64,000 bases of DNA from Nymphaea colorata (taxonomy: Eukaryota; Streptophyta; Magnoliopsida; Nymphaeales; Nymphaeaceae). The stretch is taken from assembly GCF_008831285.2 (NCBI RefSeq), contig NC_045138.2:13466571-13530570 (forward strand), written 5' to 3'. Below, in pieces: positions 2,743 through 64,000 of the stretch; the first letter of the stretch is position 1, and every line of letters begins with the position of its first letter. The notes beneath the pieces are model-generated. The model ran no database searches. It was not told where the DNA came from and saw only the letters and a list, made by a program, of their open reading frames with translations. The translations under genes were made by a program, and so were the position numbers.

Positions 2743-5700
2743 TCAATCAAGTTGCTGAGAGGGGGATGGTCTGACAAGGTTTCTCGCTTCGAGGTCATCT
2801 CCAGGTGGTCCTTTTTCTGTGCCACCATTAGCGACTGTAGAAGAGATCATCTCTCCTACATCTTCAAGGTCAGGCACAAAAGGGTCCTCTTGAATTGATT
2901 CCATTCTAAGACTGTCCATCCTCCTTGCAGAAAAGCCAGGACTACCATGTAGGCAATTGTATGACCGTGCAGCCACTGTATCTGGGCTACGTGAGGAACG
3001 AAAAGCAGGGCTAAACAAGGGCTGCAAAAGACGCTTTCTATCTGGAGAATCCCGTAAGGATATTCGACAAACTGGGCAAGTAGAATGCTGCTGCAGCCAT
3101 ATATCTATGCAGGTGATATGAAAAGCATGGCCACAGTAAGGAAGAATGCGGAGCATATCTTTATCTTGGTATTCTCCCAGACATACGGTGCACCTGGAAA
3201 AGAAATAAACTAGGATTATGATCTGTGAAGTAAGAAATTCTAAGATACCAAATGGTGGAAATTCTCCTTTTCATTCTTTATTCATTATTTTTACCTTTTG
3301 TCCTGTTTCTAACAATCTATTGCAGAGGCATCTATCTATTATCTACAAGTGCAATAAGAGAAATGAGAGTAACATGCAAACTATATATACTGATGAATTT
3401 TCCGAGGAAAATATTTTTGAGTATCTGATGCTCATGCATGCACAACACACACGTCACTACTGGTTTACAAGAATATCACCTGAGTGGGCTGAATCTGGTA
3501 GTTGGTCACAAAGCAAATCAAATAATGAATTCCCCTACCTTGTATGAGCGTCCCATAAAATACATGGTTCCTACATATTCAGTCTATCTGGTCACTGTCA
3601 GCAGGGAGGATATTGCAACAACATGTCTAGGTTACAAAAAAGAAAGAAAACCGCCAGTGTTACCAAAGTTTTTGACACTTCACAACCATTCCAATTGAGC
3701 GAGTTAGAATCAGAATGAACAGAAGATGTGCATAGTCCATTTCTTAAGCCTTCATGATCCTTGCAATCTGAGACTCAGTTAAGGCTTAATAATTGGAGAA
3801 CGCCCAACCGAAAAGGTACTTCAACAGGAAGCTTTCTCAGTGTCACTCCCTTGATGTAGGTTATAGCATCGTTGGACTTCAACAGGAATAGTTCCTTTTT
3901 AAAAAGACAACCTAAATTTTGTGATTGCACCACATGCTTAGCGCAGTTGTATCTGACATTTGAAACATGGCATGCTTATCATGAAACTTACATGAAAGAA
4001 CTAAAATTAACAAACTCCAGCCTCCCTCGGTTGCATGTTTATGGTGGTTCATCAGTTTCCTTCAAAAGCCTGATCGGTCTTTTCTTCAGTATTTGGGCAC
4101 ATTGTGTATATAATTTTATGATTGCACCACACGTTTAGCCAAATTGTGTCCGACATTTGAAACAAGGCATGCTTATCAAGACAATTACATCAAGGAACTA
4201 AAGATAGCAAACTCAAGCCTCAACTAAGGCGCATTTTTATGGTGGGTCATTAGTTTTCTGCAAAAGCCTGACCTGTCTTTTCTTCAGTACTCGGGCACAT
4301 TGTGTATATACTCATTAGCTCATAATTTTCAACAAGTGTAGATGGTGTGTTTGACTACTAGTGCCACCTCCACATGCGAAAAGTATTTCTGGGACATGCA
4401 ATCAATCATTTATCATCAACCATTCAATTGATTTTTCCTAAAAGTATTTACTTTCTCATCTTCCTCTTCTTCATTAAGTTTTATTGGGCGAAGTTCAGGA
4501 GCAGCGTGCATAAAATATTTCTAGGACAACAAACAACATCAGCAGATCAATTCTTCTCAAGTTATCCTGTATGACAGCTTTCTGTTCACGTCTGTGCGTA
4601 ATTCGGAATATAATAGCCATTCTGAAGCCATTTCGATGTCGACTGAAACGGCCAAATAAAAGATGCCATCAACGAAAACAAGAATTAACTTCGAAAAGGA
4701 ATCACCGACTGTGGGCAAAAATACATTGAACTGAACGGTTAGTGAAAGAAATGACATCCAACACGATGCAGCAGAGAAGATTTCGCAACTGAAACACCAA
4801 TTTTCTTAGTTCTGTTTTCCTGTTTGCTTTATGTAAATGAAATTCAGCTAACAAAAATATTTTCCTCAACGACTGGCTAGTATCAGATGAATGCAGGAAG
4901 TAAAAAAAATTAACCACAATTTCTTGCAACAAAGAAGCAGAATTTCTGAAGCTGCCACATGAACTTGACTGACCCATTAGTAAGTTAAAAAGCCATAAAA
5001 AAAAGTATGTCTGTTGTGAGACTTACTGGGAATCTTCACCGGAAGAAAAGAATTCATCACTGAATTTTTTCGTCGGAAAGCTCGATAGTAGCACCGGTTC
5101 AAGCCCATGAATTCCACGCTCTAGCTGTTGCACGAACAATTGCGTATGATTCAACAACATCGTGAGTCAGAATAAAAAAGTGTTAAAACTTAATGTCACA
5201 GTGATACATGAAATTCCCCTCCACCAGAAAGAAAAGGAGACCCAGATTAATAGAGGAAGACAGGGACAAAGCCTGGGAAACCAGAATCAGTACACATCCT
5301 CATCCCTCACATAGGTTTTAAATTTTCATTTTTGAATACCTTGAAAAAATTTCAAGGTTGCGTTCAAACAATTAGATTTCGCATCCAGAAGTTGCCCAAC
5401 ACGGTCACATGCCCGCCAAAAGACAAGGATTATCTCTGGAAAGTTTCAGAAAGGAATCAACCCCAAATCCTAACTAGAAATAGGAAGGATCAAATAACAC
5501 AAGCAATAAAAAAAAACTGAAAGGGGGAATGGTCAGGCACACTGTAGCAGCATGCGTACAATTGTCCTTCCAGTAGACTCTCGAATGGGAAATGGTGGAG
5601 CTAGAATTATAGAACTAGCAACATTAATCAAGACAAAAAATTTGGATTGAATGTTTGCACGAAAAAACTAACACAACTTTGGGGAAAGGCGACAGAGAAA

Positions 5701-7017: not shown

Positions 7018-7185
7018 AAGCTAACTTCTTCCAACAACAGTTCTACCATTTTCGCCGATGAAACAAAGATGTCCGGCTTGCCTTTACAAGTAAGCCCATG
7101 TAAGCTAACTTCTTCCAACAACAGTTCTACCATTTTCGCCGATGAAACAAAGATGTCCGGCTTGCCTTTACAAGTAAGCCCATGT
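7018..7185. repeat. Perfect 84-bp tandem duplication, two copies
   Basis: Copy 1 is 7018-7101 and copy 2 is 7102-7185. I could find no difference between them by eye. The unit is a multiple of three, so open frames on both strands run through both copies; this is a by-product and not evidence of coding. Identity this high means a very recent event, or an assembly error. Confidence 0.9.
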
Positions 7186-8814: not shown

Positions 8815-10296
8815 CTCGCTTATATAGATTATAGCTGAACAAAAGTGTCCACAACCACATGAATAGACAAATAAAGGCGTGCGTTTCCATCACTGGTTGG
8901 TTCGCCAACGTTTTTTCTTTTATTAATGTGGTCGTGTAGGGGACGGGTTAGGTGGGCGGAATGGGAAAGGAAAAATGAAATCCTCGGAAAGAATGCTTAT
9001 AAAGGAAGAGACGAATAAGAGCAAGAAGGATACATTAATATTTGTACTGAATAGATCATTCAAGCGACACATAGATCAGGTGGAAGTAGCTCGATCAGTA
9101 CTTGCTTTTCTTTTTCTTTTTGTTGGTGATGACTAAAAAGCTAGCTAATGGCAACTACGCACAAGGCAAATATGAATGGACTTCCACCACCGATTTTGGG
9201 CAAGCATGCAGTAAACTTTGTTGGGCAGTTTCTCACTTTAATATACTTTTATGGAGTTCTGGCCCGTCTACACCAGAAGTAATCAAATTAAAAGAACGAG
9301 CTGCCAGCCCGGTCCGTATCTGTCTATGTGACAAGATTTCCATTTGCCTTAATGTCTGTATCCGCACTCGCGATTCTCATTTCTAGACTTTTATACGTGC
9401 AAAAGGAATAACCTTAGACTAAGGGAGGTTTGATTTTAAATCTATAAATCTCAAATACTGGAAAATACAAGATAAGATTAGACCAAAGGTAATCGGACAG
9501 TCTCATATTGTCTCAACAATAACGCATGTCCCAATCATAAAAATAGAAAAAAAAAATCCTGCTGATACTTTTTCTTTCTCATGTGGATTTGTTGTGATTA
9601 TGAAACTACTAGCATAAGCTCGGTTGCATATTTGGAGCAGCGTTATAAAAAGAGAGGTCAAAATGGGTCCGAACTAGCTGATTCGATTTGAATGGTCCCT
9701 TTCGGTTCGATACCTGCGGCCAATTTGACGATATTCATATTCAGAAATCGGCCAACTTTTTTGCAGAATCGCTTCCATTTCCTTCATACCGCCCGCTTGA
9801 CAACTAATTACAAGCCAACTGAGGAGAGAAGCCAACGATGAGAACCTCTTTCAAATTAAGTTGAGAAGTCGCATATATTTCCTACGTACTTTTCTTTCTT
9901 TCTTTTCAGAGTTTTAAATTATTAAAGTATATTTTAATTAATCATTTCAGAACGGGCGAGAATATTCGTGCCAGTGCAGCATCATGTTAGCGTGTCCTCT
10001 GTCATGCTTCGATACATAAGCAAGAGGAGAAGCTTACTGGAACAGCTCCTCTGGGGGCTGAGCCATTTGTTCATCTCCATCTCCAGTCATCAGCATTCGT
10101 GGCAAACATGCAGCAGTACCATGAACGCCAAATCTTGTTTGTTAAAGAGTACACTAGAAGGAGGGCCTTAAGCATGTGTAGGTGTCTGATAAGTTTCCTT
10201 TGCCATATGCTTCTCTCAGTAACCAGCGCTCTCTCCCGCTCTGCGCTGTAGACGGAGCAGTCGATCGGTGAAGAGAAAGATACCAACATATCGATA

Positions 10297-11712
10297 ATGG
10301 TTCAAGAAGATTTGTTCAGGTCCAAGGAACGGCAGCCTCGAGTTCTACTGCTACCGTGGCTAGCATACGGCCACATCTCCCCCTTCTTGGAGCTGGCCAG
10401 GCATCTTTCTTGCAGAGGCTTCACAACCTACCTCTGTTCCACCCATACCAATCTCTCCTCCATAAAAGAAAAGCTTCGACAGAGGAGCTATTCGAGCATC
10501 AAAACAGTAGAACTCCAACTACCGTCGATTCCTGAACTCCCTCCAAAATTCCAAGCAACGTCGTCTCTCCCATCACACCTAATGCCTCTGCTTAAGAAGG
10601 CCTTTGATTTATCCAAGCCTGCTTTTATAGACATCCTACAGGCTCTGAACCCAGACTTTGTTATTTATGACTTCCTCCAACCATGGGCTCCCTTGGCGGC
10701 TTCACAACTGGGCATCCCCGCCGTGCTCTTCTTATCAACTAGTGCTATTTGCTTTTCTTATGGCCGTTCCAGGCATGAAGGACACGACCAAAACGTCTCC
10801 CCTTTCAAAACCATTCATTTCCTTGAGCATGAAGTAGAGAACAACAATAGAATGCTCCGCAGTGAAGCGAACGGCATCAGGGACGTAGACAGAGTTAATC
10901 AATGCGTCGATCAGTCTGAAGATGTGATCTTCATAAGAAGCTCCAGAGAGATTGAAAGAAAGTTTGTCGATTATCTTCCGCTCGTAACCGGTAAAAGGGT
11001 GATCACAGTAGGCAGTCTGCTTAATCAAGAGGCAAGCGACCACTCTGCATCACTGCCATGCAAGTTCACAAGTTGGCTTGGAACAAAGAGGAGCTCTTCT
11101 GTGGTTTTTGTTTCATTTGGTACAGAATATTTCATGTCAAAGGAAGAAATCACAGAGATCGCACTCGGTCTGGAGCTATCGAGGCAGAACTTCATATGGG
11201 CAGTCAGATTTGTATCTGAGGAGGAGGAGGAGGGGATGGAGAGACAACTGCCCGAGGGATTCATGCAGAGAGTTGAGGGGAGAGGAATGGTGGCGAATCA
11301 GTGGATCCCACAAATGGAAATACTGAGCCACCCCTCAATTGGAGGCTTTCTGACCCACTGCGGATGGGGGTCCCTGAATGAGGGGATGGGCTGTGGGGTG
11401 CCCTTCATTGCTCTGCCCTTGCACTTGGACCAGCCTCTCAATGCAAAGCTGGTGGTAGGGGAGCTGGGCCTTGGGGTGGAGATAGAGAGAGAAAGGGATG
11501 GGAGGTTTAGGAGGGAGAAGGTGGCGGAGGGGATCAGGAGGGTGATGGTTGGTGGGGAGGGGGAAAAGATGAGGAGGAAGGCGAAGGAGATGGCTAAGAA
11601 GATGAAGGAGAAAGATGATGGGGAGATTGATGTGCTGGTTGGCGAGGTGAGGAAGATGACGAGCGGAAGGGGATGGAAGGAGCGGGGACTGCAGATCAGA
11701 GAGATGAAGTAA
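10297..11712 (+). CDS. UDP-glycosyltransferase, UGT94-like, intronless
   Basis: A GT1-fold enzyme of 471 residues, a usual length for plant UGTs, in a single exon. It would transfer a sugar from a UDP-sugar to a small molecule in the cytosol. The N-terminal acceptor domain has the catalytic His26 (in LAYGHISP) and the candidate partner Asp125 (in YDFLQPWAP). The C-terminal PSPG box covers residues 336-379, starts at W336 (WIPQMEIL), contains HCGWGS, and ends in Asp378-Gln379. These last residues, with Trp357, are the usual sugar-contacting ones. Gly in place of Asn after HCGW, and the HLDQPLNAKLV ending, match the UGT94 sugar-on-sugar (branch-forming) enzymes better than the aglycone-glucosylating groups. 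So a role in extending the sugar chain of flavonoid, terpenoid or carotenoid-derived glycosides is a reasonable inference. The real acceptor cannot be read from the sequence. The C-terminal helix region is very rich in Lys, Arg and Glu. Confidence 0.93.
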   Translation: MVQEDLFRSKERQPRVLLLPWLAYGHISPFLELARHLSCRGFTTYLCSTHTNLSSIKEKLRQRSYSSIKTVELQLPSIPELPPKFQATSSLPSHLMPLLKKAFDLSKPAFIDILQALNPDFVIYDFLQPWAPLAASQLGIPAVLFLSTSAICFSYGRSRHEGHDQNVSPFKTIHFLEHEVENNNRMLRSEANGIRDVDRVNQCVDQSEDVIFIRSSREIERKFVDYLPLVTGKRVITVGSLLNQEASDHSASLPCKFTSWLGTKRSSSVVFVSFGTEYFMSKEEITEIALGLELSRQNFIWAVRFVSEEEEEGMERQLPEGFMQRVEGRGMVANQWIPQMEILSHPSIGGFLTHCGWGSLNEGMGCGVPFIALPLHLDQPLNAKLVVGELGLGVEIERERDGRFRREKVAEGIRRVMVGGEGEKMRRKAKEMAKKMKEKDDGEIDVLVGEVRKMTSGRGWKERGLQIREMK

Positions 11713-25800: not shown

Positions 25801-28800
25801 CATTCTTACTTGATGACCTGATGGAAGAAATGGATGAATGTATTTCAGGTGAGTATTTTGGTAAATATACTAATGCTCTTTTTTCTTTTATTTTCTGGGT
25901 GCATGGCGCTGTAATGGTTACTGTTCTCACTGTTACCATTGTGATCACCTGTTTTAGGACATGCTGTCGCCTGTTTAAGCAGCAATCAAACTTGTGAAGA
26001 CTCAACTTGTGATTTGGATCTCCTTAGGAAGGTCGATCCTGCGTCAGCAAATAGGATACATCCAAATGATATTAGAAAAGTAAGTGTCTCATGGTTGCGT
26101 AGTTTATGTTCTTCTTCAATTGCTGGTGGTTGATCTATACTTGTACTCAACTTTTTCATTCAGTTATTGTGTTTCTTAATTGCGTATTGTGACAAAAGGT
26201 GAAGTTGTAATGTTATTGAATCGCTTACCACTGAATGTTCTTAGGGAATCTGCTCTACGCTCTTGATATGCATTTCAAGGGACTGACTGGCTCATTTTTT
26301 CTGTCATCTATATGCACAGTACAAAATAGGCAAGTTTCTTGAAGTTTGTATGTGGGTGTGTGTATGAATGCATCTTACTGCAGTGTGTAAATTTTTAAAT
26401 ATCTGATGTCAACTTTGGGGTTTGGACCAGTTAAGGTCACACTATCCCAAATTGGCTCTGAGGAAAAAACTATTCTTCTTTTCGAAACTTCAACATGCAT
26501 AAGTAGTCCTGCCTGCTCAATATCTTGCTTTTTTGTGTTCTGGTTCATGGTTCCCCAGCAGAGGTCTCCAAAACATTGCAATGGGTGTATAATTGTTATG
26601 AGCTTTTTGACACATTCAAGTTTTTCCATTTTATTTTTATCTTATTCTTTTTTTAAGTTCCAGCATATAGTACATCTTCACTGGCACAGGAGTAGATAGT
26701 TCTGTAGGCATTCCTGCTCCTATATGGGTGTATCCTGTTTGCCTTAGACTAGGGTTGGCAGTAGTAGACAGTCCTACTCCTTTATCAACAGCCCATTGCT
26801 ATGATATAGACCAAAGGTGAACACAAGGAGAGGCAAGCCTCTTTGTCCTGCAAGGGTGGATTTCCTTTCCTAATCATGAATTCTGATTTTCTTCGACAAT
26901 CTAATCTTTGTGTGATGGCTGTCTTGCATCAGTAAATATGTGGACTATGTCTAACTTGTGCACACTGGATCTCATGAGATTGGTGTATACTGTATATCCA
27001 GCCAGTACCTTTGCGAGTATGCACATGTCAGTTTTTCTTAGTCCAGATAATTGTCTAGCCTATGCTACTCTGACCTTAGGTATCATCAATCTTTACCAGG
27101 CTCTATGTTCCAAATGCTGGATTTCAGGTCCTTGCACCAACTACTGATCCTGCAGCTAGGGACAGGTTTTCTTATTTCAGACTGTTATATATATGGACCT
27201 AGTGCATATACAAAATAATTGGTCACCAGGCTACCACCCAGTAGAATCAGTAGGAAAGGGAAATATCATTCTGCCCTTGTGCACTGCCGAAGTTATTCTT
27301 ATATTCTGAAGTCCGAGTATTCATTGTAGTCAAAGCTTTGTGCATTACTAGAACAGGCAAATCTGTTTGCTTCTGGGTATTGTTCTTTTATTTGAGATAA
27401 AGAGTTCAAGGCAAGGGCAAGTTTGCAGTTGAAAGAAACAAGTTTAGTTGGGTTTGAATGGACAATTTAGTCACCTCCAGTATACTTTTGACACTTAGAT
27501 AAATTCCTTAGGTCTTTTGTTAATTGAGGTTGAGTGTTTATTTGGTGAAAGGATGATAGATTTATGATCCAATTATGGTTGTCACTGGAAATTAGCTGAA
27601 GAAAAGTAATGAATTGCAACCAGATTCGACAATTTCTGGAGCTTCTTAAGTGATAGCTGTTTCATGATTATGTACTTTTTGTGGATGATGTTTATTAACC
27701 AACATACATAACTTACCTATCTGTCATTATGAATATCATCTAAGATGATGCCACAAAAGAATGGTCTTATGGTTAAATATGTCCGCTGAATTCTTAATGC
27801 ATGTCTATGCAGGTCAAACATTATCTTAGCCTATATACAAAAACAGGAAGGCTTCCTAGTGAATTATTTCAAGGAAAGGGATCTGAGGTTTGTGTTTCTT
27901 CTTTCATAGGTGGATGTGTTTTTTTTCTATGTTCTAAAAATGTTTTACAATTTGAATTGTCCAAACAAACGGAGCTTGTGTCCCAACTTTCCTGACATTA
28001 TTATCAAAATTATTTTTAACATGCATTAGAAACATTCTCTAGATAGCAGCATACAAGCACATGACATTGGAGATTGGTTGGAGAATTTTGCATATTTCTG
28101 CCAGTATTTTCCTTTTAGAAGACTGCAGTTACTTGGATAATGGCCCGATGTTCTTAATAAATTGTGTTTCGTCATTTTCATCCATATGCTGCATTTTTTG
28201 TTCAGTGTAACCATCAATGGAAGTCAAGCACCTAAGTTCTGGGTGATGGTGACTGCAATCTGAGACCAGAAACATAGGCTAATATTAATGTCTACCATTA
28301 TGTGCATTGGCCATTTACCCAGGTTTTTAGCAAGTAACTTGTTTGCAGTCTGGTTAAAAGAGAGATAAACGAAGTATTTTAGAAGATGATCTTGTTGTTC
28401 ATGTATTTCTTCTCCTTGGCAAATGAAAGACTTGCTGAGGAAACTTGTTGGTAGTTATAGTGGTAACCTTGACATTGCTTCTGACAGGGCAGAAGTGGGG
28501 CAGAGTAGCAGATTTCAGATACGATTGCTGCTTTGTGTGTGTGGATGCTTCTCTTCCTGTCATTGACAGATATGTTGAAGAGAGGGTCGACTGCATGATT
28601 GAAGCTGGCTTACTGAATGAAGTAATTGATATATACAACCCAAGTGCAGACTACTCAAGGGGGCTTCGGCAGGCTATTGGTGTACGTGAATTTGAGGAAT
28701 TCTTGACATTCTCTCTCTCTAAGGGAGAAAGTCTCTACCCACACCTCGTAAAGGAGGCAGCTGATATAAGTGCACAGCAAGGTGGTCCTTTCTTGACACA

Positions 28801-29905
28801 TGGTGAAGATAAATCTCTGTCACACACTGCAAGGGAAATATTTGAGTCAGGAGATGAGACACAAAAGATTCTGTTAGTAAAAGCTATTGATAAGTTGAAG
28901 GCAAACACACGAAAGCTTGTCCGCCGTCAAGTAATTTTTTTTCTCCTTCAAGAACTAAATCACAATCTTCCATGTGGATGTGGGTAGAGTTTATTTTATT
29001 ACCTTAGGATCATATTAAAGCTTGTGGCCTGACTTGTAATTTTAGTACATGACATGTATTACCAATTGTTTCCATCATGATAGCCGTGCCAATTTTTGTC
29101 AACTTGAGCATGCGCCGTTCAAGAATATCTATCTCCAGAGATAAGCTTGAGAGAAATCATCTGGTGAATCACAAAGTAACTTGAGTAAAGTCATCATTGG
29201 GCCGAAAAGTTCTATGTTATTATGGGTTATAATTTATAATACTTTGACTTTTGAGTGAGGATCTTTTGATTTTGATGTTACAGAGGCGGAGGCTTAATCG
29301 GCTGAAGGAAGTATTCGGATGGGAGCTTCATTACTTTGATGCAACAGAAGCCATTCTGAGTATGTCAAACAATCTTTTTTGGGTCCTAGTGCTCTGGTAG
29401 GTACATGGTCAATGTCCACCAGATATGTTCTAAATCTTCATTTTGTCAGGCAAATCTGCAGAAGCTTGGACAAAGCTGGTGGTTGAACCTTGTGTGGAAA
29501 CAATTGGATCTTTTTCGCACATGGTTTCTTTGGATGAACCACAAGGGCTTCAAGAGAGCATAGCATCCAGGGACTTGTGGACGCAGTATATCTGTCAGGT
29601 ACCATGCTTCGTCCATCTCTCAGTTCCTGTTGTTTCCTCCAACATGGTAAGTGATTCTGCAATTCGTGTTTAACTTTTGTCACCATCTTATTGGACACCA
29701 GGCTTGTGGAAATCGTGTACTTCGTGGAGCGCATGAGTGGGAGGAACATCTAAGAGGTCGTGGCCATCGAAAACGGATTCACAGACTGAGGAAAAAGGCT
29801 CAAAGTTTTGGCTCAGGAGAAAATCTTCATGAGAAACAGATGGAGCAAGTGTCCGGGCTCCACATGGCAACGGAAAAATGCTTCGAAATGCAAGGGCTCA
29901 AGTAA
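22894..29905 (+). CDS. IPT2: tRNA dimethylallyltransferase (IPT2/MOD5 type)
   Basis: This enzyme adds a dimethylallyl group to adenosine 37 of tRNAs that read UNN codons; in plants it feeds cis-zeatin formation. Eleven exons join in phase: 22894-23085, 23167-23221, 24067-24146, 24861-24929, 25788-25848, 25958-26079, 27813-27887, 28493-28930, 29284-29359, 29450-29598 and 29702-29905, giving 506 residues. The P-loop is GATGSGKS at 36-43. The catalytic-base motif NADSMQ is at 59-64 (Asp61), followed by VYEGLDILTNK. GVPHHLLG and the GGTNYYIQ motif are both present. The C-terminus has a zinc finger, C438-x2-C441-x13-H455-x5-H461, then basic RKRIHRLRKK. That finger marks the eukaryotic nuclear/cytosolic type (Arabidopsis IPT2, yeast Mod5, human TRIT1) rather than the adenylate or plastid IPTs. 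A second in-frame Met14 could also be used. No transit peptide is evident. Introns 1 and 2 begin inside CT tracts. Confidence 0.93.
23086..23112. repeat. CT microsatellite abutting the exon 1 donor of IPT2
   Basis: The donor reads CAG|GTCTCTCTCT, so the dinucleotide run begins within the splice site. A second, shorter CT run follows the exon 2 donor (GG|GTCTTTCTCTCTC) from 23222 on. Confidence 0.85.
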
Positions 29906-30747: not shown

Positions 30748-30922
30748 CCCCGGCCGGGGGACCGGAGAATCCTTTTATTAATTTTGTCTCCCGTGTTCAC
30801 ACACGTGCTGCTTCTGCGCGTATTAAACTGCGTAGAGTTCGCGGCCCCCAACTGATCCCCCTCTATGTGAGCACCATCCTCCCCTCCCAAGTCCAAACCC
30901 CTCTTCTTTCTCTCATGCTTCC

Positions 30923-31573
30923 ATGGATTCAGATGTACTCTCTTCTTCTTCTTCATCAACATCATCTTCTTCTTCTTCTTCTTCTAGCACTTCTCACCAC
31001 TGTAGCCACGGTCATTCTTTGGCTTCTGACATGCCAAAGAAGAAAGCAGGCCGGAAGAAGTTCCAGGAGACGAGGCACCCTGTTTATCGGGGTGTACGTC
31101 GGAGGAAAGGCGGGAAGTGGGTTTGTGAGATACGTGAGCCCTTCAAGAAAACCCGTATCTGGCTCGGCACTTACCAATATCTGGAGATGGCTGCCCGTGC
31201 CTATGATGTTGCGGCCTTGGCTCTCAGGGGCAAGTCTGCCCTTCTCAACTTCGCCGACTCGGCATGGTCGGTGCCTCGTTCAGAGTCCAAGTCTCCCAAG
31301 GACATCCAGGCTGCTGCCATGGCAGCAGCCGAGGCATTTCGGCCATCCGCCAGTAAGAAGAACATGGTGCCGGAAACCAGCCACTGGTTCGAGCCACAAG
31401 CAGTTGCTCCCAATTCCAGTGCATTTGTGGATGAGGAAGCCTTGTTCAACATGCCGGCTCTGCTTGCTAGCATGGCAGAAGGGTTGCTGCTAGCTCCACC
31501 AGCATGTGTGCAATCCGATGATTGGGATGACACGGACGATGTCGACATGGAGATAAAGTTGTGGAGTGACTAG
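30923..31573 (+). CDS. CBF/DREB1-type AP2/ERF transcription factor
   Basis: A nuclear activator of 216 residues that binds CRT/DRE (CCGAC) elements in cold- and dehydration-response genes. It is intronless, as usual for the group. After a Ser-rich start (residues 7-24) comes the first CBF signature, [16 protein letters not shown] (38-53), which is basic and also serves as a nuclear signal. The AP2 domain is about 54-111 and contains [19 protein letters not shown], with the DREB-type Val14 and Glu19 of the domain. DSAW follows (112-115), the second CBF signature, though its usual Arg is replaced by Ser. The acidic C-terminus ends in LWSD, close to the LWSY motif of CBFs. One oddity is Leu where most AP2 domains have Pro before EMAARA. 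The start was chosen because the next Met is inside the signature. The gene follows IPT2 on the same strand with a 1-kb gap. Confidence 0.93.
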
Positions 31574-36294: not shown

Positions 36295-37526
36295 TCACTT
36301 CTTGCAGATCATGCCACGGCCATTGAACCCGGTTTTGCACACCAAGTCGCCTTCGCCCGGACGAACGGCTCCCTCGACGGTCAAGCCGGACGCCGTGCCC
36401 GTGAACCTTGCTGCGGCACAATCGGTGGGGAAGAGTCCCGAAGAGAGGAACTCGCGGTCGCCTCCCAGCACTGGCATCTTCAGACCAATCTTAGCTCTGC
36501 TCTTGTAGTTGTCCGCATAGGTTTGGCCCAGCACGCCATTGACGCTGCCGGTAAGGGAGTAGAACCTGAAGCCTAAGTCTAAGTGAGCGAAGCAGTGGTC
36601 GTTGGTGATGCCGTAGCCGTGGACCCTAGATTCCTGCTTGCCGATAGGAACCACCTTGACCATGATCCTGAACTTGTTGGGTGCCTCGACCACGACCTCA
36701 TTCGCCGGTGCGTCTAAGCGAGAGAGATGGTGAGAGCAGATGCAGCGGCACTACTCGACCACTGAGCGTTCTCCGCGGCGGGGAGGAAGACGGGCTCGCC
36801 GTCGAAGGCAATGGCCAGCTGATCAACCGCATCATCCCATTCAGCGACCTGCGTCAATATAATCGTCCAATATAAGCAAGTTAATTTTCTGCTTTTCCGC
36901 AGCGCCATGCAGCTTATGTAGTTATGTGCATGGCGGGCTATCCGTTCATTTTGAACGTAGAGCTAGCTAGATAAGAGTTGCTCACTGGGGGTTCACCTTC
37001 TTGGCACCAATGAAGAGCCTGTGTTCGTCAAAGAGGATTCCGATGGACTGGACCCATATGAAGTCTCGGTTCATGCCGTCCCCCCTCTTGCCGATGAAGT
37101 GGCCGTTGATGTGGAGGTTGGTGTCGGACACCAAGCAGAAGTCCTTGTCTTTCTTGCCGTGGAAGTAGAAGGTGATGCCATCCCCTCCGATGAAGCGGGG
37201 ATCATCGCACACAGCGCCAGGCTCGTCGCAACCTGCACAGAGAGAGACCAACACAACGTATGTGAATAGCTTCCTTTGATACTGAACTAATAATGACCGA
37301 CTTACGGCAGACTGGTGTGGCAGTTCATTTTGCAGGTGGTGGGGCAAGCGTCAGGGCAGATCTGCTCGACCATGTAGCATTTCCCAAATTGAGGTTCGTG
37401 GCGCCTGCACCTCACTCTCTTGCGCGTAGAAGATGGTGGAGTTGCAGATGCGATCTCGACAAAAACAAAGGCGAGCAGGAGGAGGAGGAGGAGGCCTCGA
37501 GCAACCGGGACGTTTGCGGAAGCCAT
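36295..37526 (-). pseudogene. Root-cap/LEA-related secreted protein gene, frame-disrupted
   Basis: The sequence encodes the plant root-cap family (Root_cap domain, LEA-related) in three exons: 37526 to about 37306-37313, 37232-36997, and 36848-36295. Exon 1 has a signal peptide (MASANVPVARG, then poly-Leu) and a Cys-rich segment (CYMVEQICPDACPTTCKMNC). Exon 2 has the family core DPRFIGGDGITFYFHGKKD. Exon 3 has VLGQTY, the MPVLGGDREF block and TDCAAARF, and ends in ICKK. Two things do not fit. The strong exon 1 donor (CC|GTAAGT) puts exon 2 out of frame; only a weaker GTCTGC donor seven bases upstream keeps it. In exon 3, near 36711, the frame runs into a TAG after SALTISLA, while the rest of the domain continues in another frame (DAPANEVVVEAPNKF), so one small indel is implied. 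Either the gene is a young pseudogene or the assembly has an error. Everything else is well conserved. Confidence 0.75.
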
Positions 37527-55517: not shown

Positions 55518-57754
55518 TCAAGGTTTTATGAGCATAGACTCGAGGCTCCTGTTCAGCTCCTCCAACTTTTTCATCCTCAGCCTTTCGCTCTCGGTCACCA
55601 ACTGTTGGTCCAATTTGCATTAATTAGAAGAAGCGAACAAATAATTAAGGTGCCATTGTCATGATCAGATGAAAACCAGACAGGAAAAAAATTTTACAAA
55701 CCCAAAAAGACAGGCATCTTTATGCTCACCTCCATTAGTTTAGTAATCAATTGAGATTTTTCTCTGTTCTTCTCATTGTAAGCCTCGAGCGCGTCTTTGT
55801 ATTCCTTCTCCTGTGATAAAGAAAACATAACGGGAAAAAAGGTGTTACTAGTTTCAAATCATATTCCAGCTCTATGAAAATCACTGTTATATATATAAGA
55901 ATCCCCTATATAGAAGAATCCCCTTCTTGTTCTTCTTTTCAATATAAGAAAGTCAGATTCTCAAAAAGTGAAAAAAAAAACACCTCGAAATGAAAGACCT
56001 AACTACAGGGAGTCGGTACTCAACAGAATCTTAGGACACAAGGCGTATGGGGAAGCGTCAGAGCCAAATTGCAGCCCAATGTCAGAACGTCATGAACATA
56101 ACGGACTCACCTTCTTTACGCAAGCCTGAGCAAGTGGCTTCAACTCTCTGCTCACACTGTCAATCTTTTTGCGAATTGATGATACTTCCTTCCTTGTAGG
56201 ATCTGTCAATGCATCAAGTTCCTGCAAGCAACAAAGATACACAACATACTCATATTAATAAAAAGACATTGCATGCAGCACTAACTTGGCTATGTGCTTA
56301 ACCGTTTCAGATAAGAAAGCGCAATCATTTTGCGATTTAAGCAGGTAAACTTGAGTGGAGACCAACTTAACTAACAACTATATCAAGGAATCCGAACTCC
56401 TCTGCTCCGAGACCAGGGGGATCTACCAGATTCGATCAAACACCAAAAGCTGAATTGTGGGCATCTTCAACCCCCAGCAGGAAGAGCTAAGTCTCCGCTT
56501 CCGCGGAAAGCCATGGAGTGGAGGCTATACGGGCGGCCCCACTCCTGGTTGGCTCATAATTCCTGTGATGACTACACATCATGAAGGTGATTCGATTGGA
56601 CCCAGTTCAAGGCCTAAACCTAGTCTCCGATCTTGGGTCTGACCAACCAATTCATCATCAATTTGATGCATAAGTGTGAAACTTTTTTTCTTTCTCCAAT
56701 TTTTAAGGACAATTGGTTAGTAAAAATTCACAACTACCGCTCCTTCCTTTCTAGATCTCAAGTGAGAAACACTTGGGTTGCAAGGTAGGTCTCCTACCCG
56801 TTCCGGCACTTATGCAGGAGGCAACTAGCCTTGAGGCTTGAACAAAGAGGACTGCTGGGAAGAGCCCAAGAGCTTCTATGTGTCTCATGCAAGCGAGTAA
56901 GTGGTATAACGGCCAAAACTGGAAGGTGGTAGTAGAAAAAGTCATACAAATTTGTGAAAAAACCATCAACTTGCTGGAGAAAGGGAGGTTGCAGTGTTGC
57001 ATGGGGAGCTGTTTTTCCATTTTTCCCTTCTCATGGGTGGGAAGCACTATTTCTATTTGCACAAACACAATCTCCAGGCCTGCTGAAACTTGGATCAGAA
57101 GAGGTACAGGCAAGAAGCATTTTACGGCTTTCCCCAGGGATCTGTCTAAATTGGTTTTGTAATACAACAAGTTTTAGAACATGGTCAGTTACTACCGGCC
57201 CCTGATCCTTATGTCCAACCATCTTTGACATAAAAACCACAGACATCCGAGTCCCCAGAAACTGGATCCCCTTTTAGCCTTGGCCTCTGTGGAGGGACGC
57301 ATGCACACACGCACACACACATAAAAAACTTTGGGTGTCGAAGTCGTGACGTCTGTTCAACTTGATATGCACGGCCATGCTTCCCAACCAGGAGTTGGGA
57401 ACCCTTAATTTGAAGTTCGAACAGAACTAAGGACGAATTCGGAACAAGGAAGCGAAGAAGCTGAAAAAAGGGTTCCGGTGGTAATTGGTCGGAGCATGTA
57501 CTTACTTCTTTGATCTCCGCCAAGCGCTTGGTCTCTTCCTCGACGCGACCCAGCTGAGCCTGCACCCTTTCCTTCACCTCCATCTTCTTCCTCTCGATTT
57601 GCTCCTCCTTCGCCCTGAAGGCCGTCAGCGCCGACCGGGACGCCTCGTCTTCGTCCCCCTTCTCGTCCTTCACAGTCTCGCTGAAGCTTTCGAGGCTTTT
57701 CAGCCTGAGCACTTGCTGCTGCTGTTCAGACGCCTGCTTCTCTACCTGCTGCAT
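55518..57754 (-). CDS. DUF662 / GORAB-like coiled-coil protein
   Basis: A small plant coiled-coil protein of the DUF662 family (annotated elsewhere as RAB6-interacting golgin or as a transcriptional activator; true role uncertain). Four exons join in phase 0: 57754-57506, 56221-56111, 55810-55730 and 55601-55518, giving 174 residues. A Gln-rich start leads to an acidic segment. Next come the family hallmark ALTAFRAKEEQIERKKMEV, then VQAQLGRVEEETKRLAEI, DPTRKEVSSIRKKIDSVSRE, and a C-terminal coil ending LRMKKLEELNRSLESM. Almost the whole protein is predicted helix with heptads; there is no signal peptide or membrane segment. All splice sites are canonical (GTAAGT, GTGAGT and GTGAGC donors). 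Intron 1 is 1.3 kb and has open frames that are not part of the protein. Upstream on the coding strand is a GA-rich run (57829-57850), typical of plant leaders. Confidence 0.92.
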
Positions 57755-60700
57755 CTTTTCCCTCCCCACAGAAGAACACCAACTTGGGGATGAGTCAGAA
57801 ACCCCTACCGTCTCTCCCTCACGCGTTCTCTCTCTCTCTCTCTCTCTCTCCTTAAAGATTAAAGACTCAAGAGTAATGGCGTCCTTTTGCAGGCACTGGG
57901 TGGCGTAGGCGAATATAAACAGTAGGCTTAGGATGAGACAAAGGGGTGGGATTTGTTATTGAGAATAATTTCTCATGAAGGGAGAGAGGCGTAATGACTC
58001 ATGTACCATTACTCTGGTTTTTGTATTTCAAAAATGTGCCTGCCAGCTTTGAACCATGATAAATAATTGATCCCCTGCTAAATGACTAAAGTAGCCTCCT
58101 TTATATGGAAAAGCAGCTTTTACATCTTGGTTGGTTGGTCGGTACCCTTTGCCAAAGGAGAGCACCAAGTTGGTGATAACTGCTTGCCCCTTATTTTATT
58201 TCAATTCTAAACGCTCTTATCTGGTTTGGTTAGCTTCTATCCTTGCTAAAGCATGGTCAGTTGGTCAACCGTTCGGCGTCGCTCGTAAATTAAGCTTTTA
58301 TGCTTTTCTAATTACAAACATCGCCCTTCTTTTTTGCTTTTTGAAGGTGAAAACGAAATGCCATTAAAAATTCAATGCCAACGGGACATTTTCTAGTCAT
58401 AAATAAACTTTTTTCATATTTTGTTTGATTTGTTGTCCTTGACTCCTTTCAACCGTTCTTTTCTCTTATCACAGGGTGTCGGCTACACGCGGCATTTTCT
58501 TTTTTTTTTTGGTTTTGTTTTGTTTTTATAACGTTGGCCTTTATAACTAAGGGTGACATAAGTTGATCTAATCGCCCTTCTTGTCCTTGGATTGTTAGAT
58601 TGGGTACTTGGTCAACTGGTTCGATCAGTTAGGTAAGGGTGCTACATCTGATGATGCTAAGCATGATCATCAGAGTTCCTCCACAAGTGATTGATTACCT
58701 TCTCCTTCCAGCTTAGCTACCAAGACTAAGACTAAATTAGTGTAGTGGGTGGTACTAATTCCACACATGTACACAGAATCTGCAGATCACACGTTTATTT
58801 TGGCAGACCAATTGCATGCCCAAGGTTTGCAGATACCGGCGGTAATTAAGTTGGTTTAATCTGCCGTTCTTGACGGTTCTGCAGCCGAATCAAACTGGAT
58901 TCTCGATGCATTTACCCAACTCTACTATTTGTTGGCCTTCACACGCTTAGCCGCAGAAAAAACAGAAAGCAAAGGCACGACAAAGCTAGCGTTTAGTTGG
59001 TTCAAGTGAAATGAACACTTCACTTCTTTTCTGTTTTGTTCCTTGCATGTGGGTCAAAGAAAGCTTTTAGATCTCTCTCTCTCTCTCTCTCATTAAATGA
59101 AAATGGTGTGGTTTTATAAGAGGAAGTTTAGTGGGGAGGGCATTTTTGGGTAGGAGAGAAGCATTGGGATGATGAGACAGTGTGAGGGATGATGCTTAGG
59201 AGTGCCGTCAGAGGGAGTTGGGTTGGGTAGGGAGTAGGCCAATAAGAAAGGGGTCACGCTCATAGCCGTAGACAGGAAGATACGTGGGAGAGCTAACCCT
59301 AACTAACGCCCCTCTCCTGATGATGCATTGACACCAAAACTGCTACTGTCTATGCATTTGGAGAAAGAAAGGGAATCCAACCGACTCCCCACAATTTTTT
59401 TTTTGGCCTAAACCTGGATTCAGGCTTACAAGAATTTGACAAGGTGGTGTTCCCTGTTTGTCTTAAAGTTTCTTTTTTTTTTTTTGGGTTGGGGTCCAAT
59501 ATTCAAATGAAAAATAGTTGAAAAATAAGATTTCCTTATTTGAGTTTTTTTTTTTTTTTAAATCTCGCAGCCACGGGCACCACGATTGAATCGAATCGGA
59601 AACTTTAGCTTCATCTTTAGCTTTTTCTTTTCCGAAATGAAAGTATAAAGTTGCATCGTCCATTCAAGTGGAATCAGACAATAACGGATGCATCGGTAGA
59701 ACCCCGAAGCTAATGCCCTTATCATAATCTATTAAAGTTCATGTTAGCGGCAACGCCTCTTTCTTCTTCCCCTTCCCCTGCTAGCATAATACATAATTGA
59801 ACGTTGATCTGCTCCAAAAGGTATTGGGAACACTACATGACTAACATTTATGTGAAGATCGGAATATGACAGTCGCCACATTCAGAAAGATTGAGTCACC
59901 TTTTCCTATAACTGCGGCAAAATTGTGGCCTCCGCACATTTTTATGGTTTTTGAACCATGGTTGTATTTGTTATTGCATTAAAACTTGCTTCGATGTATT
60001 AATTCATCCGTATGTCAAATCTCCAATGCCATGTATAATCAATCGTGAGTAAGGCTATACATTGCCCAACTAGGACCCAGACTCAGCATCATGAGGTACC
60101 TGCCATGGCCAAGTCAAGCAACCTGCCTACACAGACGAGCCCAGTTCAGCTTAATATTGTTCAATATAAGACCAGGCCAAAGTCAGACTGACAATTTTCA
60201 AGGTGGGTGCCATGGGCGGCCCCAGCCGCCGCATGCCATAAGGTTAAAATTTTCGCGAGGGTGAACAGAAATTTGAGCATAGGAATGATTTGAACATGGT
60301 CCAAAACGTCATGTTGAAGCCAATCTCTAAGATGATGCAGAACAAACCAAAGATGACATATTGACATGAAGGCTTTTATTTTTTGAAGTTTCTACTTGCG
60401 TGAATAAAAAGAACACAACAGTTAACTCGACATAGTTCGTTACCATAAATGATCATGAACCCCATCGATTATTACATAAAATGGAGCCGACAGCAATTAA
60501 AACTAATAACTACATTTTATTGGAGTACGGCCTAAAATTATGGTTCACCTCGGACATCCAAGTGCAATAAATTTAAGATTCATCTTAAACAATCATGGTT
60601 CATTACGCGGGGACTTCTGCGTCATGTGCTGGAGTAAATAATAGGTTGGATTCAAGATAGAAGGACAAGGAGTAAAAAGCATTGGTTCTGATGAAATTGC

Positions 60701-60850
60701 ATGGAAACCCCACAAGATTCAACAGGACATACCGAAAAAATAGACAATTCCAATTCGATCTTTTCTTAAGTTCGCTAGAAGTTCTTTATGAAGCTCCACA
60801 TAAAATGCATACCCCAATTGATGAAGCGCTGCTGGTAATTTTCATGCTTC
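57755..60850. other. Intergenic, no gene recognised
   Basis: The upstream region of the DUF662 gene followed by about 2.8 kb of AT-rich DNA. It has CT runs at 57829-57850 and about 59073-59091, and poly-T runs at about 58501, 59396 and 59550. Short open frames lack domains. No tRNA or transposon with clear ends was found. Confidence 0.5.
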
Positions 60851-60973
60851 AGGCCACGTTTGATGGCCAGGAAAAATACCGTTCATCGAGGGTTTTTTTT
60901 CTTTTTTGTACGGTTTCAACCGATTTCAACGAGCGCCATCAAACGGCGCTAAAATCCCCCCGCTCAAAACTCG

Positions 60974-61030
60974 TTTCCAGGGTAAATTTACCCTGGAAAA
61001 AAGTCGGACCCGTGAGGGTCCGACTTTTTT
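60974..61030. repeat. 26-bp perfect palindrome next to a 15-bp stem-loop
   Basis: The perfect palindrome (60974-60999, half-site TTTCCAGGGTAAA) is overlapped by a stem-loop. The stem-loop has arms 60997-61011 and 61016-61030 (AAAAAAGTCGGACCC and its exact complement) around a GTGA loop. A third, smaller hairpin (AGCGCC/GGCGCT) lies just upstream near 60930-60948. All three lie within the gene-carrying element. Confidence 0.9.
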
Positions 61031-61333
61031 TTGGGGATAATTTTTTTGCCCATTAGGGCTTCTTCCAGCGCTCCTCTCCCTCGCGACCGCTTCCACACAG
61101 GCAAATGTCGCCGTTCGCTGCTGCCGAAGCTCTCGCCTCTTGCCTGCCGACCCATCACTGTCGTCGCCACTAGTCGGTGCTGCCTCTGCCCTCCCCTGAA
61201 ATTTCCCTCCCCTGATTCAATGGTTCCTTGACTGCTTGCGGTTGCTGCTGCCATCGCCACTCGCTGGTGTTATCGCCACCACCGTCGCCCTTCACTGCGA
61301 AAATTCGGGGCTGTTCATTTTCTTCTCTTGCCT

Positions 61334-61858
61334 GCAATATGTGTCCAGAAGCCCCTCCTTGAATTTCAAAGAGCGAAGCTGAAGTTTGAGGCAGAATTGC
61401 AGCAGGAAGCAGAAAATGGGGATTTCACCTACAGCATTGTGAGGCCGACGGCTTTCTTCATGAGTTTAGGTGGGCAGGTTGAGTTGGTAAAGGATGGGAA
61501 GCCATATGTAATGTTCGGAGATGGCAAACTATGCACCTGTAAACCCATCAGCGAAGAGGATTTGGCCTCTTTCATTGCTGACTGCATCTCTTGTGAAGAT
61601 AAAATTAACAAGATTCTCCCAATTGGTGGACCAGGAAAGGCATTAACACCACTTGAGCAGGGAGAATTGTTGTTCAAACTTTTGGGCAAGGAACCCAAGT
61701 TTCTGAAAGTTCCAATAGGAATGATGGACTTTGTAATCGGCATTCTTGATTTTTTGGTTAAATTCTTCTTTTCTCTGGGAGATGCTGCAGAATTTAGAAA
61801 AATTGGAAGGTATTATGCTGCAGAAAGTATGTTGGTGCTTAACCCAGAAGATGAATGA
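61334..61858 (+). pseudogene. Captured fragment of divinyl chlorophyllide a 8-vinyl-reductase
   Basis: The open frame matches the C-terminal half of DVR, a plastid enzyme of chlorophyll synthesis. Recognised blocks are [81 protein letters not shown] and [14 protein letters not shown]. It starts abruptly at AICVQ and ends right after NPE with two foreign codons and TGA. The NAD-binding N-terminal half, the transit peptide and the C-terminal tail are missing. There is no ATG at the start of the frame; the first in-frame Met is at 61457. About 174 codons are open without a stop or shift, so the capture is recent or the frame is kept. It cannot be a working reductase. The frame has no introns, in keeping with DVR being a one-exon gene in Arabidopsis as I recall. 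Confidence 0.88.
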
Positions 61859-61966
61859 ATAAGCAGGATGTTTGGGTTTCAAATTTTTTCATAAAAAATT
61901 TTTCTTGTCTATCAAACTATGCATTTTTTACCCATCAAAAAAATTCCAGGCTATCAAACATGACCT

Positions 61967-64000
61967 TAAAGCTGCTTGACTCGGGAAAATTTGTGAAAAA
62001 TTGAAAGTCATCTGTCGACCATAGATGCAGAAAGAAAGGTACCGGCTTGCAGATCTTCTAAGAATGATAACTGCAGGCAACAAAATTCGCAGACACATTC
62101 GTGTGTTGTTCAACTTTTGATCAGCACAATGGAACCAGAAAAAGGGGAAAAAATGGTCATAGAAGAGAGATTACATAGCGGTTCTGATCCACGATGCACT
62201 GTCGCAGTTGGCACTCGTTTTCCCAAAAATTTAGTTACTGGTCGTCGGATTCTACATAAACACATAGCAAAGCAAGAAACCACGTTAAAGATTATCTATC
62301 TAAAAGTCATTTCCCCTCTTTTTTAAAACAAAGTACTGTCTATTGTTTTTTATGAGTTTGCCACCATAAATCATATTAAAAAAGTTCATCACATAATAAA
62401 CTAAACCTCTTTTTTAAGTTCAGAAACTACTAGTCGTTTAGCGTCAATAGGGAAAGGACCAACTTGCTGAAAGACAGGATCGAACACACCTAAGAAGGGC
62501 CCCTTGCAGACTCTTGATAGTGGTTTAATTTCTGTTGAAAGTTGGCAACTATGGTAATTGAAAGCCAAAGGTATTCTTTAAAAGATATGCAGCTCAACCA
62601 ACTATTCTTCAGTTTATTAGCTCACCAACTGCGATTTGTTTGGGTACATGATGGCGGAGCAAACCAAAGTTTAATGTGTTATTATTTGCCTTAAAATCGT
62701 CAGATCACCAATTCCAGCGTGATGTCACATTGAAGATCTAGCATATCAGATATGTTAATAATAAAAATGATTTTTTGCATGTATCTAAACGCAACCAAAG
62801 TTCGGAACTTGGTTCACAAAGCGATCAACATGTTTTTGCTTTCTTGAATGTAGGTAACCAACCAAAAATGAAAATAGCTAGATGTATGTTTGGCAGGCAG
62901 AATTTTGGAAGAAACACGAGGCAGTGACAGAATAATTCTAACAAATTTCCAAACTTCGTATGCACATTTTGAAGAGGCTAAGTTGAAGTTTTGTTTAGTA
63001 CCAAAATGAAGGCATGAGTTGAAATTTTGTTTAGTGCCAAAATGAAGGCATGAGTTGAAATTTTGTTTAGTACCAAAATGAAGGCATGAAAACAAGGAGG
63101 CGGATAACAAGGAAAAGCAACCAAGGGCCACATGCCACATCCCATGAAGTGTACTTTGTAAAAGGAAGGTCCTTTTCTATTATGTGTAATTGCCAGATGT
63201 AAGTGCAAGCTTTTAGAAAATTAGAAAAAGCTTTCATGAAACTTGTTGCCGTGACAAAAGTTGTGGAGTTATTAAAATTGGATTAAGCTAGCTGTTTCCA
63301 AGAAATGGAGCGATTTAGTCCAATTGCTTGTGCATGTGAAAGACAGCTCAATGATCCATGTCTATAGAAAGACGTCATAAAAAAGAAAAGAAAGCGAAAA
63401 AAGAGAGAGATCCAAGGAGCTGATAAAAAAGAAACACCCTGCTACGGCGGAGAACTTGCAATTGCAAAGCATGCGGGCCTCCCTGCATCACATTCTGCAA
63501 GCGCCACTGCGAAGTTCGATTAACGGTGTCAGAGATGGGACTGGGCTTTCAGAAGCAATCGCGTCAGTTCCAGAGTCCCGTGGCTCATTTGAATGCTGCG
63601 ATGGTCTCTCAGAACTTGCCAGCAATAACTTTTGATCCCCTTCACGAAGCAGAAGCTGCTTTTCCTTCTGCAATCAACAATTTTCTCTCAGAAGCACTTT
63701 TCATTTTGATGAGGCATATATGGGCAACTTTGCATTGCCCTGCTGGAACAAACTGCAAAAACTCAGAGCAGAGGAGCCCATTCTAGAATTGCTGCGGCGA
63801 GTGTCGATCTTTTTTTTTTTGCTGAGAATGGGACAGCATTCCAGCACTAGGATCCACTGTTGTTTGCCAAATTGAGATGGACCACACCAAGGATAAGAAT
63901 ATCCTATATATATATATATATTAATGAAATTCAGAGAACTACAATATGACTGTAATTGCCGTAGGTATGCGGTCCAAATAGAATAACATGCTAGCAATGG
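61967..64000. other. Intergenic, no gene recognised
   Basis: AT-rich DNA with short frames lacking known domains. It holds the 36-bp tandem repeat at 62981-63088 and a TA run near 63902-63921. A frame near 63526-63786 is open on both strands but matches nothing I recognise. Confidence 0.5.
62981..63088. repeat. 36-bp tandem repeat, three copies
   Basis: Copies start at 62981, 63017 and 63053. Each begins AGTTGAA and ends with AAAATGAAGGCATG. They differ at two or three positions. The unit is divisible by three, so the minus-strand frame shows a matching peptide repeat, but there is no other sign of coding. Confidence 0.9.

Follow-up and report, generated by a model that had tools for sequence, protein, structure and literature searches.

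Positions 60852-61965 (1114 bp) of the window, i.e., of the whole 64,000-nt stretch of Nymphaea colorata DNA analyzed here, probably represent a degenerate, non-autonomous PIF/Harbinger-like Pack-TYPE transposon that carries a piece of a gene for the chlorophyll-synthesis enzyme DVR (divinyl chlorophyllide 8-vinyl reductase). This reading is based on the truncation of the DVR sequence at both sides, ends that fit a PIF/Harbinger motif, the clustering of end cores in these ends, hairpins in the left part, and the triplet TTA at the right border (Table 1). Against it stand the imperfect TCA/TTA target duplication, the fact that inverted pairs without a motif are not rare in the window, the lone copy in 64 kb, the unlike folding of the two subterminal regions, and the failure to find a transposase in the ORFs scanned. 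The sequence-only reading had proposed a Pack-type transposon, which the anatomy of the element supports and refines to PIF/Harbinger-like. In the presumed course of events, an internal DVR gene piece, presumably from a gene of the same plant, and perhaps a GC-rich second piece would have been taken up by a short element that had PIF-type ends and copies of the end core in its subterminal regions. The composite would then have been inserted at a T(T/C)A target by a transposase supplied from elsewhere, i.e., by trans mobilisation. PIF/Harbinger elements are mobilised by the PIF transposase together with ORF1, and non-autonomous members have their ends in common with an autonomous relative.

Table 1. 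Features of the candidate element and its borders (positions within the window).
Feature	Position	Strand	Remark
Left flanking triplet TCA	60849-60851		Differs from the right triplet TTA at one base; candidate target-site copy
Left terminal inverted repeat GGCCACGTTTGATGGCCAGGAA	60852-60873	+	Fits G(N)5GTT (motif rule PMC2213677)
Hairpin AGCGCC/GGCGCT	60932-60950		Loop overlaps end-core copy GTTTGATGG (60936-60944, minus strand)
Perfect 26-bp palindrome TTTCCAGGGTAAA/TTTACCCTGGAAA	60974-60999
Hairpin, 15-bp stem AAAAAAGTCGGACCC/GGGTCCGACTTTTTT	60997-61030		4-base loop
GC-rich (59%), CpG-rich block	61041-61306	+
DVR/BciA-type 183-codon fragment	61307-61855	+	Homology start may be 61301
Stop TGA closing the DVR frame	61856-61858	+	Beyond the homologous part
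AT-rich right subterminal region	61859-61943		TTTGATRG copies at 61909 and 61932 (minus strand)
Right terminal inverted repeat GGTCATGTTTGATAGCCTGGAA	61944-61965	-	Fits G(N)5GTT
Right flanking triplet TTA	61966-61968		Candidate target-site copy

Extent and identity of the DVR fragment

The 183 codons encoding an internal piece of a DVR/BciA-type 8-vinyl reductase are free of stop codons and lie within a stop-to-stop frame of 208 codons (61232-61858, plus strand). Homology starts at 61301-61307 and ends at approximately 61849, corresponding to a length of about 181-185 codons. Thus, the piece is slightly longer than the 174 codons given in the sequence-only reading, whose description of it as open, cut at both sides, and devoid of a start codon holds. 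Within the 208-codon frame, no methionine is situated 5' of the homologous part, and an internal ATG at 61460 would yield a product of 132 aa.

Scans of the 208-codon frame against Pfam and NCBIfam revealed no family at an E-value of 0.001. At a lax limit, similarity to the NmrA and NAD(P)H-binding families appeared that does not reach the cut-offs of these families, and among the seven PDB sequences with E-values up to 1, the best was pinoresinol reductase 1 (1.3e-4). Since neither the family scans nor the PDB comparison provided a clear name, the DVR/BciA naming rests on eight bacterial loci, which were without annotation in this analysis and which we take to be BciA, plant DVR presumably being the BciA counterpart. 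These loci are the 8 out of 74 pattern stretches in a scan of prokaryotic genomes that encode relatives of the fragment; two belong to the Chlorobium group and six to Erythrobacter/Porphyrobacter relatives. In one scan of viral contigs, none of 9 pattern stretches encoded such a relative. Plasmid records contained no DNA match, and no Rfam match was obtained for the window at gathering scores.

The eight bacterial relatives span residues 1-181, 1-180, or 4-180 of the 183 query residues and are identical to the fragment at 94-116 of 177 aligned residues (53.1-65.5%). Aligned with these proteins, it opens just upstream of the conserved stretch HF(V/I)LLSAICVQKP, and homology ends at ESMLVLNPE. 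N-terminal of the part shared with the fragment, the bacterial proteins carry a G(A/G)(T/S)GxIG region, presumably the nucleotide-binding motif, and at the C-terminus a tail of approximately 27-40 residues; both are missing from the fragment. Among the 81 columns that are invariant across the eight enzymes, 69 are kept and 12 are changed, including S to P, K to M, and A to R, with three of the 12 adjoining an alignment gap. Judged by these features, the DVR stretch is a gene piece rather than a gene, because both protein ends are missing and invariant columns are changed. A functional DVR is a complete protein with a nucleotide-binding N-terminal part, of which the element keeps an internal piece only. 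Due to the loss of this part and of the C-terminal tail, the piece should not be able to form a working reductase.

Inverted ends and end cores

Inverted ends at 60852 and 61965 bracket the DVR piece at distances of 455 bp upstream and 110 bp downstream. They are alike at 18 of 22 positions with a longest exact run of 7 bases, in agreement with the inverted ends of about 21 bp described previously from the letters. Inverted similarity without a motif is not rare in the window and by itself only suggestive. With a spacing of 300-2000 bp, 47 ungapped inverted pairs with 18 of 22 matches were counted, 39 of which were removed as low-complexity; the 8 left, including the candidate, amount to about one per 8 kb. 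When the 260-bp ends were compared locally with gaps allowed, the score was 27, which was matched by 5 out of 300 Markov-1 nulls. The end in a relaxed 17-base version (at most 3 mismatches) is not enriched in the window: it matched seven times compared to 4.3 expected matches, and as many were found in 15 out of 100 shuffles; two of the seven are the element ends and a third is an internal copy at 60934. Taken together, these three tests are not sufficient to establish the ends.

According to a published rule for PIF/Harbinger elements, ends comprise at least 14 bp with G(N)5GTT and at most 4 mismatches in 14, accompanied by an exact TTA/TAA duplication (PMC2213677). The two ends of the element agree at 11 of their first 14 positions and at 18 of all 22, and both contain the motif. 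The form G(N)5GTTTG, slightly stricter than the published one and picked after the ends were seen, delimits 34 pairs of 100-5000 bp in the 64 kb, the best of which is the pair of the element (18/22), followed by a pair with 13/22. None of 60 simulated Markov-1 windows reached 18/22 with this form, the maximum being 16/22. Published PIF ends, e.g., GGCCTYGTTTGGCTG, or ends opening with GGTCCTGTTTGTTTG, resemble those of the element (PMC2213677, PMC6327408).

With both strands counted, the window contains four copies of the core GTTTGATRG, all of which are situated within the two ends of the element; for the shorter TTTGATRG this applies to five out of eight copies. Both cores were derived from the ends themselves, which accounts for two copies but not for the remaining ones. 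Subterminal repeats of an end core are often transposase binding sites, and the subterminal copies observed here are putative sites of this kind. It is the fit to the PIF/Harbinger motif, together with the clustering of the core in the element ends, that makes the ends convincing.

Target site, superfamily, and alternative origins

An exact TTA/TAA duplication is missing, as TCA on the left and TTA on the right differ by one mismatch, and no pair in the window, that of the element included, combines the motif with exact TTA/TAA. Due to this imperfect duplication, the element is called PIF-like and is not filed as a proven PIF member. In the packFinder survey, TTA/TAA was given for 52.4% of the rice and 81.2% of the maize PIF elements found (PMC8903248). 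Other triplets thus occur among surveyed PIF elements, and TCA/TTA does not exclude the superfamily. As in Pack-TYPE elements, inverted ends surround a host-gene piece in the absence of a transposase: none was detected in the DVR frame and the 20 Pfam-scanned ORFs, out of 35 ORFs of at least 110 aa, a scan in which short exons would be missed. Pack-TYPE elements are further characterized by additional copies with the same ends and by a donor gene that lacks these ends; a second copy of the element was not found by blastn in the 64 kb.

A Pack-type element from a different superfamily (hAT, Mutator-like, or CACTA) with slightly shifted true ends would likewise be in keeping with the subterminal core repeats and the hairpins, and the 5-bp direct repeat TGCTT, the sole exact flanking repeat of five or more bases, flanks the element at 60850/61972. 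As a target duplication, TGCTT was rejected, since it would need asymmetric ends. No flanking repeat of 8-11 bp with one mismatch or none occurs for starts at 60840-60859 and ends at 61956-61984; neither the 9-bp target duplication of Mutator-like elements (Pack-MULEs) nor, with one mismatch allowed, the 8-bp duplication of hAT elements was found. The ends of CACTA elements begin with CACTA, whereas those of the element read GGCCACG and GGTCATG and fit the PIF rule, and another superfamily is therefore regarded as unlikely. A further possible origin would be a degenerate DVR pseudogene fragment, derived from ordinary duplication, from the filling of a double-strand break, or from a Helitron, with coincidental inverted ends. 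Helitrons start with TC, end with CTRR and a hairpin, and insert between A and T. The 8 complex inverted pairs with 18 of 22 matches in 64 kb, the imperfect target duplication, and the single copy in the window are compatible with such a fragment. It is nevertheless improbable in view of the motif-constrained test, in which 0 of 60 null windows reached the observed similarity, the end-core clustering, and the sharply differing composition blocks that separate each end from the fragment.

A processed retrocopy of a DVR mRNA is hardly credible and was rejected because both the 3' end and poly(A) are missing: homology breaks off before the normal C-terminus, without a poly(A) tail behind it. Furthermore, the fragment is enclosed by inverted ends. 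It contains no intron, as a retrocopy would, yet this is uninformative with respect to retrocopy or DNA capture, because the DVR gene of Chinese cabbage consists of a single exon (1,233 bp, 410 residues; PMC8387703).

Internal mosaic

The interior of the PIF-like element is mosaic: a left part rich in hairpins is followed by a GC-rich block, then by the DVR piece, and finally by an AT-rich end on the right. The ratio of observed to expected CpG is 1.37 in the left 189 bp, 0.96 in the block at 59% GC, and 0.25 in the DVR piece, compared to 0.59 for the whole window and 0.33-0.90 for seven long ORFs. The right 110 bp (61856-61965) contain no CpG at 29% GC. Three successive hairpins are located in the left part, and 220 bp from 60851 fold as single-stranded DNA with a z-score of -6.7. 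For the right 111 bp, in contrast, folding does not exceed that of shuffled sequences (z -0.6). With a strong fold on the left only, the two subterminal regions are unlike beyond the ends. Within 60974-61030, the 26-bp palindrome and the hairpin with the 15-bp stem share three bases. For the hairpin core GTCGGACCC, nothing related by title was found among the literature matches listed.

Apart from the self-match and matches of its palindromes, a blastn comparison of the element to the window yielded a single 14-bp hit (E-value 0.72), and the GC-rich block has no blastn match elsewhere in the window. This block may represent a second captured piece or, alternatively, the upstream part of DVR itself after an internal deletion.

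Genomic surroundings

The window carries plant-type genes, with AP2, Root cap, and other domains identified by Pfam. Gene pieces at 2746-3270 (-), 10252-11709 (+), 28439-28984 (+), 30836-31570 (+), and 36298-36750 (-) match RING finger, UDP-glycosyltransferase, IPP transferase, AP2, and Root cap domains. On the left side of the element, the nearest ORF matched in Pfam ("Transcriptional activator", PF04949) is located at 57212-57955 (-), and the element is situated approximately 3 kb upstream of it. About 1 kb past the element, a 36-bp minisatellite with three copies and 95% matches occurs at 62981-63089. Further tandem structures are two 197-bp units with 83% matches at 3915-4310 and a perfect 84-bp duplication at 7018-7185, which leaves the minus-strand frame open and is either very recent or an assembly slip.

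Age of the insertion and possible effect on the parent gene

Recent capture had been suggested on account of the unbroken frame. The open frame fits youth, but it is weak evidence of it: 73 of 1647 single changes (4.4%) create a stop in the fragment, and the frame stays open with a probability of 0.40 after 20 random neutral changes and of 0.16 after 40. The four mismatches in 22 end positions and the imperfect duplication suggest some age and point away from a very recent insertion, so that this part of the sequence-only reading was not upheld.

The sequence-only reading had proposed that sense or antisense RNA, if the piece is transcribed, could affect the parent DVR gene; by analogy to work in maize reviewed in PMC13317346, an antisense or small-RNA effect is possible. 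A more specific scenario, in which the hairpin- and CpG-rich left end would serve as promoter or give rise to siRNA, and in which small or antisense RNA made by the element and matching DVR would tune the chlorophyll gene in trans, is very unlikely.

Comparison with known gene-capturing elements

Pack-MULEs take up coding and GC-rich sequence, which in some cases stems from several loci. The element resembles them in the presumed capture of such pieces and differs from them in lacking a 9-bp target duplication and long ends. Close counterparts are the Pack-PIF elements and PIF transduplications published in plants (PMC8903248 and PMC2528002); Pack-TIRs have been described in animals (PMC8277862). 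The Pack-PIF/Pack-TYPE elements of rice and maize are likewise short, with PIF-type ends, no transposase, and a piece of a host coding gene (PMC8903248), whereas here one copy was seen and the target duplication is imperfect. Grapevine PIF transduplications are, as here, PIF elements with host gene pieces; the grapevine pieces mostly matched the grapevine genome closely and some were common to several copies, in contrast to the one copy found here (PMC2528002). For genes captured by Pack-PIFs in maize, expression is reported chiefly from leaves and green tissues, and DVR as captured gene would fit this pattern (PMC8903248).

The capture of gene pieces by plant transposons is a kind of event already well documented. 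Judged by titles and the beginnings of abstracts, no report of a capture of DVR by a transposon was found among the literature matches listed, which is weak evidence that such a capture is unreported so far. DVR is said to be a single-copy gene in Arabidopsis, rice, and Chinese cabbage (PMC8387703). The element thus adds one more likely case of gene-piece capture by a PIF-like element, here of a chlorophyll-synthesis gene, which is of moderate interest since the donor is usually single-copy.
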